This document shows, piece after piece, positions 458 through 4,299 of a stretch of 64,000 bases of DNA. The first letter of the stretch is position 1. Every line of letters begins with the position of its first letter. This DNA comes from Candidatus Krumholzibacteriota bacterium (GTDB lineage: Bacteria > Krumholzibacteriota > Krumholzibacteriia > LZORAL124-64-63), in NCBI GenBank assembly GCA_024275485.1, contig JAJRZA010000022.1, positions 1 through 64,000 on the forward strand. The letters run 5' to 3'. Under the pieces are notes generated by a model that saw nothing but the letters and a program-made list of their open reading frames with translations, made no database searches and had not been told where the DNA came from. The position numbers were made by a program, and so were the translations under genes.

Positions 458-1318
458 TTAGCCCCCCAGAAGGTTCAGGGCCAACTGCGAAGTCATGTTG
501 GACTGGGAGAGGATCGATACGCCGGCCTGCTGCAGGATTTGCAGACTTGTCATGTTCGATGTCTCCAGGGCAACATCCACGTCGCGAATACGACTGTTGG
601 CTGCCGAAAGGTTTTCCGCAGTCATGCCGATGTTCCTGATGCTCGATTCCAAACGGTTCTGGGCGGCACCAAAGCCGGAACGAACGCTTGATACCATGCC
701 AGTAGCATTCTCCACCAAACCGATGGCCACCCGAGCTGCGTCACCGTTGGTTCCCAGGATGTTCACACCGACGGCGGGGTTGGCATCGAAAGTCAGATGC
801 AAATCTGCGGAGCTGATGATCTGTGTCAGGTCGATAGGAACGGCGCTGGTGCTTGCATCGGTGCCGATACCAACCTGCACGTCCAGGATTTGGCTGCTGC
901 CGTCAAGCAACATGATCCCGTTGAATTCGGCTGTGGTACTGATTCGGTCGATTTCCTGTAACAATTCCTGGAACTCGCTGTCCAGGTAGACGCGTTCGTT
1001 CTCTCCAAGGGTTTCCGTAGCTGACTGCTCGGCCAACTCCCTCAGGCGCAACAGGATGTTGTTGACTTCATCGAGCGAACCTTCAGCCACCTGCACTAAA
1101 CTGATACCATCGGCAGCGTTGCGGGAGGCCTGCTGCAGAGCCCGGATGTCGGACTTGAGGCTCTCACTGATGGCCAGACCGGCGGCATCATCACCCGATC
1201 GGTTGATGCGCATGCCGGAACTCAGGCGTTCCATCGATTTCTGAAATTTTGTGGTAGTGTTGTAAAGGTGTCGCTGAGCGTTCAGTGAAGCAACATTTGT
1301 ATTGACGCGGATTCCCAT
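458..1318 (-). CDS. fliC: Flagellin (complete)
   Basis: A 286-residue flagellin, a normal length for a filament protein with little D2/D3 insertion. The N-terminal D0/D1 (about 1-140) carries MGIRVNTNVASLNAQ, LSSGMRINRSGDDAAGLAIS and the coiled-coil RELAEQSATETL. The C-terminal D0/D1 (about 200-286) carries SVRSGFGAAQNRLESSI and ends SQLALNLLGG. The reading frame is open further upstream, but 1318 is chosen because flagellins begin at this motif and GGAGG (1327-1331) lies at the right distance. I could not find a convincing sigma-28 or sigma-54 promoter in the 160 nt upstream, unlike the neighbouring paralogue. It is exported by the FlhA/FlhB system encoded here and polymerises outside the cell. 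Confidence 0.97.
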   Translation of the reverse strand: MGIRVNTNVASLNAQRHLYNTTTKFQKSMERLSSGMRINRSGDDAAGLAISESLKSDIRALQQASRNAADGISLVQVAEGSLDEVNNILLRLRELAEQSATETLGENERVYLDSEFQELLQEIDRISTTAEFNGIMLLDGSSQILDVQVGIGTDASTSAVPIDLTQIISSADLHLTFDANPAVGVNILGTNGDAARVAIGLVENATGMVSSVRSGFGAAQNRLESSIRNIGMTAENLSAANSRIRDVDVALETSNMTSLQILQQAGVSILSQSNMTSQLALNLLGG

Positions 1319-1475: not shown

Positions 1476-2465
1476 ATGCCGATTGTCAGTGTTTCGCCAG
1501 CGGATCGTGCCGGGTTTCTCGATTTGGTCAATGCAGAGATCAGGCCAGATCGTGCAAAAACCAACGCCTGGGACGATTTCCCGGTAATTCTAGGGCCTCA
1601 AAACAGCCTCTGGCAGCTTGTTTACAAGATGGATGATGGTTTTATTGCAGGATGCATTGCGTGTCTAATACGTCTCCTCAAAACAAGTTGTGGAGATATT
1701 CCCGTCGCTGGAGTAGGCGGTGTGGTGACCCACCCGGATTTTCGTGGCCGTGGTATAAGTTCGGCCTTGCAAAATGAAATGCTACTGCGTTTGAAGGGGA
1801 AAAAAATTCCCCTTGGAGTCCTATGGACCGACCAACCGGAAATATATTCCGGGCGGGGTTTTGCAGCCGCTGGTTGGGAAATTCACGCCTCTGTTGCTGA
1901 ACTGGCCATTTCTGAACCAATTCCACCGGAGTGGAGCATACGTAATTTCCGAAATGATGATACCGATGATGTGACTTTGCTTTTCAATCAACATCCCTAT
2001 CGTACTGTCAGGGAGCCCGATGATTCGGCCGCTTATTACAATATGCCGGGCACCCAGGGTTTTCTTCTGGTGGATTCTGCTGATCAAATCAAGGCGGCCA
2101 TTTTTTGCGGAAAGGGAGGCGATTTTCCCCACTACATCACCGAATGGTCGGGAGACCCTGCGGTTTTGCCCTACCTCTTCCAATATGCCAACCAGCAAGG
2201 ACTGGCGCAGCAGGTCCTGATTCCAGCCGGCAGCGACCACTTGGTCAATTCCCTGGTGGATATGGGGTCTGGATGGGTCGCCTTGCCTTCCGGACAGTGG
2301 GTAGTGCTTGATGCAGAAACCCTGGTTGAACAAGTCGAATCTTTTGGTGGTGAAATTCCCGAGGACCTACATGATCCTGTGGCCTGGTTGGGAAGTGTTG
2401 ATTCCGATGGCCAACCTTTGATTGGAACTCTGACCGCTGCTGTCTGGGGGTTCGATAGCGTTTGA
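1476..2465 (+). CDS. GNAT-family N-acetyltransferase (Eis-like)
   Basis: A 329-residue protein. The acetyl-CoA binding motif A is visible at about residues 81-105: GGVVTHPDFRGRGISSALQ, with the RGRGIS pyrophosphate loop. The rest resembles the two-domain Eis-like group (GNAT followed by a longer C-terminal half), but the substrate cannot be read from sequence. The ATG at 1476 is preferred over an in-frame upstream ATG (1398) because GGAGAG lies just ahead of it and the family begins near here. It is divergent from the flagellins and followed by a glycosyltransferase, so a role in modifying flagellin or a surface sugar is possible; this is inference from position only. Confidence 0.75.
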   Translation: MPIVSVSPADRAGFLDLVNAEIRPDRAKTNAWDDFPVILGPQNSLWQLVYKMDDGFIAGCIACLIRLLKTSCGDIPVAGVGGVVTHPDFRGRGISSALQNEMLLRLKGKKIPLGVLWTDQPEIYSGRGFAAAGWEIHASVAELAISEPIPPEWSIRNFRNDDTDDVTLLFNQHPYRTVREPDDSAAYYNMPGTQGFLLVDSADQIKAAIFCGKGGDFPHYITEWSGDPAVLPYLFQYANQQGLAQQVLIPAGSDHLVNSLVDMGSGWVALPSGQWVVLDAETLVEQVESFGGEIPEDLHDPVAWLGSVDSDGQPLIGTLTAAVWGFDSV

Positions 2466-2565
2466 ACCGATGGGTTTGGGCAAGACAATTGCTCTTGCTG
2501 GGATAACCAGGAGAAACCGGTGAGTATTTTGCCGGTCATCCATATTCCGGAAGGGCTTGAGGATT

Positions 2566-3600
2566 ATGCCGGAGCGAGGAAATCTGACCTTGGCGGTCAT
2601 CGTCAAAGATGAAGCGGACTTGTTGGACGGACTGTTGCATCATCACCGGCATCTTTATGATGAAGCGGTGGTCGTGGACACAGGCAGCCGCGACGACAGC
2701 CGCCTGGTTGCCTTGAAGGCCGGGGCCAGGGTCTTTGAGTATCCTTGGCATGACGACTTTGCCGCAGCCCGAAACCATGGTTTGCAGCAATCCACTGGAC
2801 ACTGGATTCTTCAACTGGATTGTGATGAGCGCATTGACCCGGATGACTTTGCCGAAATATTGGGCATGGTCCGGAAACCTGCAGAACATTGTCATACTTT
2901 TATCATCCACAACTACACCGAAACTGCCGAAGGAGGTGCTTGGTGCGAAACCGGGACCAAGGACCGTCCATGGTGCGGGGGGGGGGCCGGGTACTGGAAG
3001 ACCCAACCAATACGATTATTCCCCAACCGCCATCAATTACGCTTTTCCGGTGTTATTCATGAGAACATTATAGATGACCTCAACAAATCAACGACACCTA
3101 TCCTTCAGTCGAACATAGTGATTCATCATACGGGCCTGTTGAGTAAAAGTGGACGACTGCGTCGGGAGAAACTCTATGGCCCTCTTTTGATGAAAAAAGT
3201 TCGTTCTGCACCCCATGACATTCGTGCCATTACGGAATTGGCGAGGTATCTTGCTGGAAAGAATGAACTTGTTGTTGCCGAACGACTTATAGCTCAAGGG
3301 TTAAAGCTTGTTCTTAATCCGGACAAGGAAGTCCAGACAAACCTTTTGATGGTTGAAATCCAAACCAGATTGGGCAAATTAAACCTAGCCATGCTTCGCC
3401 TAGAGAAAACCATAAAAAATCACCCGGATCAACTTTTATGCTGGATCCAGGCGGTTGTCCTGTGTCTTGCCAGCGGTAATCAGGTGAAAGCCAAGGCCTA
3501 TTTGCGCCAAGGGCGACAATTGTTCCCTCTTTCTCCGGTACTAAGACAACTGGAAAGCAGGTTGCCAGAGGAAAGTTTCGGGAAATCCTTTGCCAATTGA
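2566..3600 (+). CDS. GT2-family (SunS-like) glycosyltransferase with helical C-terminal repeats
   Basis: About 344 residues. The N-terminal GT-A domain starts LTLAVIVKDEADLLDG, with VDTGSRDDS (37-45) for nucleotide binding and the metal-binding DCDE (85-88), followed by RLFPNR and a HEN segment typical of the group. The C-terminal third (about 215-335) is helical and TPR-like. ATG 2566 is chosen over TTG 2557 because GGAAGG (2549-2554) is too close to the TTG. An uninterrupted G10 tract (2977-2986, residues about 138-141) sits inside the catalytic domain; the frame is open with ten G. Position between flagellin and flgM suggests flagellin glycosylation, by analogy with other flagellar loci; acceptor and sugar are unknown. 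Confidence 0.85.
   Translation: MPERGNLTLAVIVKDEADLLDGLLHHHRHLYDEAVVVDTGSRDDSRLVALKAGARVFEYPWHDDFAAARNHGLQQSTGHWILQLDCDERIDPDDFAEILGMVRKPAEHCHTFIIHNYTETAEGGAWCETGTKDRPWCGGGAGYWKTQPIRLFPNRHQLRFSGVIHENIIDDLNKSTTPILQSNIVIHHTGLLSKSGRLRREKLYGPLLMKKVRSAPHDIRAITELARYLAGKNELVVAERLIAQGLKLVLNPDKEVQTNLLMVEIQTRLGKLNLAMLRLEKTIKNHPDQLLCWIQAVVLCLASGNQVKAKAYLRQGRQLFPLSPVLRQLESRLPEESFGKSFAN
2977..2986 (+). repeat. G10 homopolymer inside the glycosyltransferase gene
   Basis: Ten consecutive G residues encode Gly-Gly-Gly plus the first base of an Ala codon. Loss or gain of one base would shift the frame and remove the C-terminal 60% of the enzyme. Poly-G tracts of this length act as phase-variation switches in flagellar modification genes of Campylobacter; here switching is only inferred. 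Confidence 0.9.
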
Positions 3601-3651: not shown

Positions 3652-3679
3652 TAAAGTTTTTCTGAACTTACGCCGATAC
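3652..3679 (+). promoter_or_regulatory. Sigma-28-like promoter in the glycosyltransferase-flgM gap
   Basis: TAAAGTTT (3652-3659, perfect match to the extended -35) and GCCGATAC (3672-3679, 7 of 8) with a 12-nt spacer, one longer than the usual 11. The 339-nt gap 3601-3939 holds no convincing gene; besides this site and the promoter at 3859-3887 I see nothing in it. A transcript from here would have a leader of about 250 nt before flgM, or could be a small RNA. Confidence 0.55.
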
Positions 3680-3939: not shown

Positions 3940-4299
3940 ATGGCGATGGACAAAATCAATGGCTCACCCCTGACCCAACCCGGCATTCTGGATCGTTTCC
4001 AGGTCAATGGTAAAGGCAAGGATGAATCGGAAAGAACCCTCGGGAAGAACAATGGAACCCATGGTGGACCGGCGCCGTCAGATACCGCCGAGATCTCAGA
4101 TAACGCTCACCAACTTATGGACTTAAGGGCGGCCGTGGACGTAGGCAGATTGGCCATTCAAAATGCCCCGGATGTGCGTGAAGATAAAATCGCCGAAGCC
4201 AGGAAACGCCTGGAACAGGGGTTTTACAACTCTCCGGTTGTCCAGGATCAGGTTGCAGGTGTTTTGGGTAACGTTCTCACCAAAATGGATGAACTTTAA
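3940..4299 (+). CDS. flgM: FlgM-like anti-sigma-28 factor
   Basis: 119 residues. The C-terminal half carries the FlgM pattern: a Ser/Asp-rich stretch, SDTAEISDNAHQLMDLRAAV, then NAPDVREDKIAEARKRLEQG, which corresponds to the helices that bind sigma-28 region 4. The N-terminal half is polar and disordered, as expected for a protein exported through the flagellar channel. It is somewhat longer than the roughly 90-100 residues usual for FlgM. RBS GAGGCAGG precedes the ATG at 3940; an in-frame Met at 3946 is an alternative. It is monocistronic: own promoter upstream and terminator at 4321-4350. Its partner would be FliA (34737). Confidence 0.78.
   Translation: MAMDKINGSPLTQPGILDRFQVNGKGKDESERTLGKNNGTHGGPAPSDTAEISDNAHQLMDLRAAVDVGRLAIQNAPDVREDKIAEARKRLEQGFYNSPVVQDQVAGVLGNVLTKMDEL

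Follow-up and report, generated by a model that had tools for sequence, protein, structure and literature searches.

GmaR, the flagellin O-GlcNAc transferase and MogR antirepressor of Listeria monocytogenes, is a protein of 637 aa in which the N-terminal domain adds GlcNAc to flagellin and a TPR domain is also present (PMC9638930). FlmG, the flagellin glycosyltransferase of Caulobacter, likewise combines TPR and glycosyltransferase (GT) modules and modifies flagellin in the cytoplasm (PMC7591256). The peptide S-glycosyltransferases SunS and ThuS consist of a GT-A domain followed by a helical C-terminal part. Regarding the control of such genes, a precedent for phase variation by poly-G tracts is given by the flagellar glycosylation genes of Campylobacter (PMC8355987), and outside the Campylobacterota by the pilus ON/OFF switch of Bifidobacterium breve, where the tracts are intragenic runs of G10–G11 and, in cultured cells, the G10 locus varied far less than that with G11 (PMC9187656).

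The locus studied here belongs to a Krumholzibacteriota genome and was analyzed in a stretch of 64 kb (the window), in which a GT2 gene close to flagellin contains ten consecutive G. The encoded protein has the same GT2-then-TPR layout as GmaR and a similar flagellar gene context, but with 344–347 aa it is too short for the linker and antirepressor domains of GmaR, and the sequence match to GmaR spans only about the first 120 residues. The order of domains also separates it from FlmG, where the TPR comes first and the GT has a GT-B fold, whereas here a GT-A domain comes first. The architecture of SunS and ThuS is like that of this protein, but the identity to them is 15% and no bacteriocin peptide context was found at the gene.

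The GT2-TPR gene and its flagellar locus

The features of the locus are collected in Table 1. For the GT gene, the ATG is a likelier start codon than the upstream TTG. Downstream of FlgM, a histidine kinase and then an NtrC-type regulator are encoded. Matches to the sigma-28-like consensus with up to three mismatches were expected by chance 0.28 times, and the predicted promoter lies between the GT gene and flgM, so that flgM need not share the transcript of the GT gene. The contig of the window begins inside a second flagellin copy, where the assembly was probably interrupted within one and the same flagellin array. Either the sugar or flagellin may be the substrate of the GNAT acetyltransferase.

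Table 1. Coordinates of the features in the window.
Feature	Position	Strand	Remarks
Flagellin	458..1318	-	Listed ORF extends to an upstream TTG at 1564; flagellin domain begins near 1318
GNAT-family acetyltransferase	1476..2465 (about)	+	Neighbor of the GT gene, kept in sister species
GT2-TPR glycosyltransferase, GmaR/SunS-like	2557..3600	+	347 aa from TTG 2557, 344 aa from ATG 2566
G10 homopolymer, GGGGGGGGGG	2977..2986	+	Codons GGG GGG GGG G(CC), Gly141–Gly143 and start of Ala144, in a GT-domain loop
Sigma-28-like promoter (predicted)	3652..3679	+	One mismatch to TAAAGTTT-N12-GCCGATAA, upstream of flgM
FlgM anti-sigma-28 factor	3940..4299	+

A GT2 domain (PF00535, E 6e-14) and a TPR (PF13428, above its cut-off) were detected in the protein with Pfam. 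Its best sequence match in the PDB was GmaR, with an E value of 1.2e-17 for the single sequence and of 3.4e-24 for the profile. In the AlphaFold model (mean pLDDT 86.6), the GT-A domain reaches to about residue 190 and is followed by TPR helices at 194–330. The best fold matches of this predicted structure were SunS and ThuS (E about 1e-14, TM about 0.6); the score against the SunS family TIGR04195 was 27 bits, far from its curated cut-off of 350. Thus the protein has the GT2 domain with a DxD motif and the TPR after it that characterize GmaR-like proteins, and lacks the antirepressor domain. Since it ends after the TPR helices, at 347 aa as compared with 637, its resemblance to GmaR is confined to the GT-TPR part, and it is not a GmaR.

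A search of 58 kin genomes, with one genome per species in the comparison, yielded two clear orthologs, 54% and 50–51% identical, in Krumholzibacteriia MAGs of the same genus as the source genome (G001 and G003; records JAAEOA010000424.1 and JADGDU010000005.1). The DxD motif (D88-C-D90) was invariant among the orthologs. When a collection of genome contigs was searched with the single GT protein, no relative was found, and the search with an alignment of the three orthologs recovered the two sister MAGs and otherwise distant GT2 proteins only. The order flagellin array, GNAT, GT, FlgM, kinase and regulator was kept in both sister species. Tandem arrays of five to six flagellin genes adjoin the GNAT-GT pair in these genomes (L068:8851-13691 in G001 and L069:1-5810 in G003), and two GT genes stand in tandem in G003. 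The description of the gene as a flagellin-linked GT2 in the initial annotation was backed by this linkage and by the similarity to GmaR, from which we infer that the enzyme most likely modifies the neighboring flagellins.

The G10 tract and its reading frame

The G10 homopolymer was confirmed inside an intact ORF, and no other run of at least eight G or at least eight C occurs in the window. The ORF, its GT2 domain and its neighbors agreed with the initial annotation, which had placed a run of ten G in a GT2 gene between flagellin and flgM; the GNAT gene, between flagellin and the GT, comes in addition. The codons across the tract read TGC GGG GGG GGG GCC GGG TAC, and in the AlphaFold model they correspond to a loop between a helix (131–136) and a strand (142–153). 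GGG accounts for about 17% of the Gly codons in the long ORFs of the window.

Translation of altered tract lengths showed that the GT frame is open with 7, 10 or 13 G. Lengths of 8 or 11 led to a stop at 167–168 aa and lengths of 9 or 12 to a stop at 171–172 aa; the alternative frames close at most about 30 codons from the tract. It had been claimed that the frame is open at ten G and truncated at nine or eleven, and truncation follows from every length change not divisible by three. Hence, the length of a homopolymer within the ORF sets the frame, as in a poly-G contingency gene.

No homopolymer was present at this site in either of the two sister orthologs, which read TGT AAC GGC GCC AAG GGG and GCC ATG GGC GCT CCC GGA. 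The loop length in both of them was identical to that of the G10 allele; therefore, ten is the length-preserving state, matching the loop of the relatives. Judged from these alignments, the tract most likely arose within the source lineage and without a net change of length. A conserved but non-homopolymeric stretch of glycine codons in relatives had been named beforehand as one half of the outcome that would speak against a switch. The site was indeed non-homopolymeric in the relatives, but the glycine stretch was not conserved, with only two invariant glycines across the orthologs. On the same ground, we rejected a requirement of the protein for a Gly stretch. A paralogous GT of the source genome, 31% identical (G000:C93:19794-20789, L002), is interrupted by an in-frame TAA in the variable loop region that holds the G10 in the GT of the window, which points either to a pseudogene or to an error of the assembly.

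Long G runs in the genome and its relatives

The source genome is a draft MAG-like assembly of 3.98 Mb in 106 contigs with about 52% GC, and its run-length spectrum was counted from pattern matches across all of the contigs. There were 50 G/C runs of at least eight (37 of length 8, nine of length 9, four of length 10 and none longer). The spectrum followed a geometric decay with a continuation probability of 0.25, for which 3.2 runs of ten were expected and four were seen. No excess of long G/C runs, the expected mark of a poly-G contingency system, was found in the 3.98 Mb, and the tract was neither kept in the orthologs nor over-represented in the genome.

For a single window the estimates varied. 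The genome rate of G/C runs of ten is about 0.06 per 64 kb, that is, a chance of about 6% for any given stretch of this size. A first-order model of the window predicted about 0.5 runs of at least ten on either strand; such a model overpredicts long runs generally, and the count of the genome itself was taken as the better yardstick. Extrapolation from the short runs of the window gave 0.02–0.03 runs of ten. A run of ten is uncommon within one window, yet it is inside chance when the whole genome is scanned, and the earlier view that chance was unlikely was overstated.

The genes carrying the runs were annotated for the lengths 9–10 and for a sample of the length-8 runs among the 50. Runs of 8–10 occurred in housekeeping genes, such as those for YchF (G9, C49:6915), RecD2 and LpxD, and also in genes for a DnaQ-like exonuclease (G10, C13:26003), a NYN-domain protein (G9), a multiheme cytochrome (G9), TssF and a PPDK-like enzyme. 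In some of these genes the run was on the strand opposite to that of the gene. Among the runs of 9–10 and the sampled runs of 8, long tracts were not concentrated in surface or glycan genes, and no link of long G runs to glycan or flagellar genes was found in the source genome and its genus.

In the genus and family examined, the longest G runs (G12–G35) were mostly at or near contig ends; the longest were at G004:C570:6131-6165, G036:C5:71483-71500, the end of G036:C30 and in G008:C304. This position suggests sequencing or assembly artifacts, or breaks at variable runs. The interior G runs of at least 11 that were read lay in intergenic DNA or in genes without a glycan link, such as that for a TonB-like protein, where a C11 run of one sister species (G003:C33:85379-85389, L162:1980-1990) encodes four prolines. 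A common pattern among the long G runs of the genus and family was rejected, given that the longest are mostly at or near contig ends and the interior ones that were read have no glycan link.

Two near-identical gene copies at contig ends of the source genome carry a G10 (G000:C47:277-286, L073) and a G9 (G000:C85:277-285, L074). The start of both copies resembles a signal peptide, with the poly-G directly after codon 34, and the tracts differ in length by one G. Both copies share the body downstream, which lies open in a different frame, and translation of either one ends at most ten codons from the start of the tract. No relative of this gene was found in the 58 kin genomes, and the remainder of the gene was absent from the assembly. 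This pair of putative secreted-protein genes is a better candidate for poly-G slippage than the GT gene.

Interpretation of the tract

The G10 is probably an incidental, lineage-specific homopolymer in a loop, a mutational weak spot rather than a switch that evolved to turn the gene on and off. This preference follows from the geometric spectrum, the runs in housekeeping genes, the tract-free sister orthologs and the presence of both MutS and MutL in the genome; the latter does not favor a high mononucleotide instability, although it is compatible with it. In the model that we favor, the gene would encode a cytoplasmic GmaR/SunS-like GT2-TPR enzyme that glycosylates the neighboring flagellins, with the TPR part presumably holding the protein acceptor. 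In a variable loop of this lineage, three glycine codons GGG and a GCC after them would have come together by coincidence, and the gene would normally be ON at G10. A slip of one or two bases would give, by translation, a protein of about 170 aa, and function would be lost. Since the truncation removes the strand from residue 142, the conserved IHEN and IHHTG motifs and the whole TPR, a slipped allele should be null. Several findings speak against coincidence: three GGG codons in a row are improbable from codon usage alone and the protein has no need of them, useful slippage of G10 tracts is known elsewhere (PMC9187656), and the two near-identical paralogs at contig ends of the source genome have tracts of G9 and G10, one G apart.

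The phase-variation switch proposed in the initial annotation is, in our estimate, unlikely. As a contingency locus, the gene would alternate by replication slippage between ON (7, 10 or 13 G) and OFF, giving a mixed population in which some cells carry this flagellin glycan and others lack it, for example against flagellum-binding phages. The mid-gene position of a G10 in which every change by one or two bases truncates, the linkage of the GT to flagellin, a tract that is not dictated by the protein sequence and the precedents in Campylobacter (PMC8355987) and Bifidobacterium (PMC9187656) all fit this proposal. It fared poorly, however, against the sister orthologs without the tract, the lack of a long-run excess or of a glycan or flagellar link in a genome where housekeeping genes hold similar runs, and the presence of mismatch repair (MMR) genes. 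The Campylobacter tracts are, as here, intragenic in flagellin-linked sugar genes (PMC8355987), but they are many and their variation has been observed (PMC539331), whereas here the genome has no tract excess and the tract is known from one assembly. In B. breve a tract of G10 size, likewise intragenic, can switch (PMC9187656), but G tracts recur across that genus in pilus genes and their variation was measured, and no such recurrence was seen here. The broader proposal that poly-G slippage in the flagellin GT and in the G9/G10 signal-peptide gene pair makes mixed surface types in this free-living, uncultured Krumholzibacteriia lineage seems slightly more doubtful still, and no paper in the literature searched joined the phylum Krumholzibacteriota with phase variation.

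Two further readings have very little probability. If the real run length were not ten, the tract would be an assembly artifact, as might occur in a draft MAG-like assembly of 106 contigs whose relatives have their longest G runs mostly at or near contig ends, but the G10 is mid-contig, its frame is open and the loop length of the orthologs is matched exactly. Slippage of RNA polymerase or of the ribosome, by which one cell would make full-length and truncated enzyme from unchanged DNA, has in its favor what a long mid-gene run might by itself suggest, and is equally improbable, with no slippery-frameshift signal and no second used frame before the early stops.

The tract calls for caution, as a single G10 falls inside the run-length trend of its own genome, which has about 52% GC. 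Far from the Firmicutes, the conserved flagellin-flgM locus described here encodes a GT2-TPR enzyme that is GmaR/SunS-like. If the switch were true, phase-variable flagellar glycans would extend to a phylum of uncultured environmental bacteria, and they would more probably be selected by phages or grazers than by host immunity.
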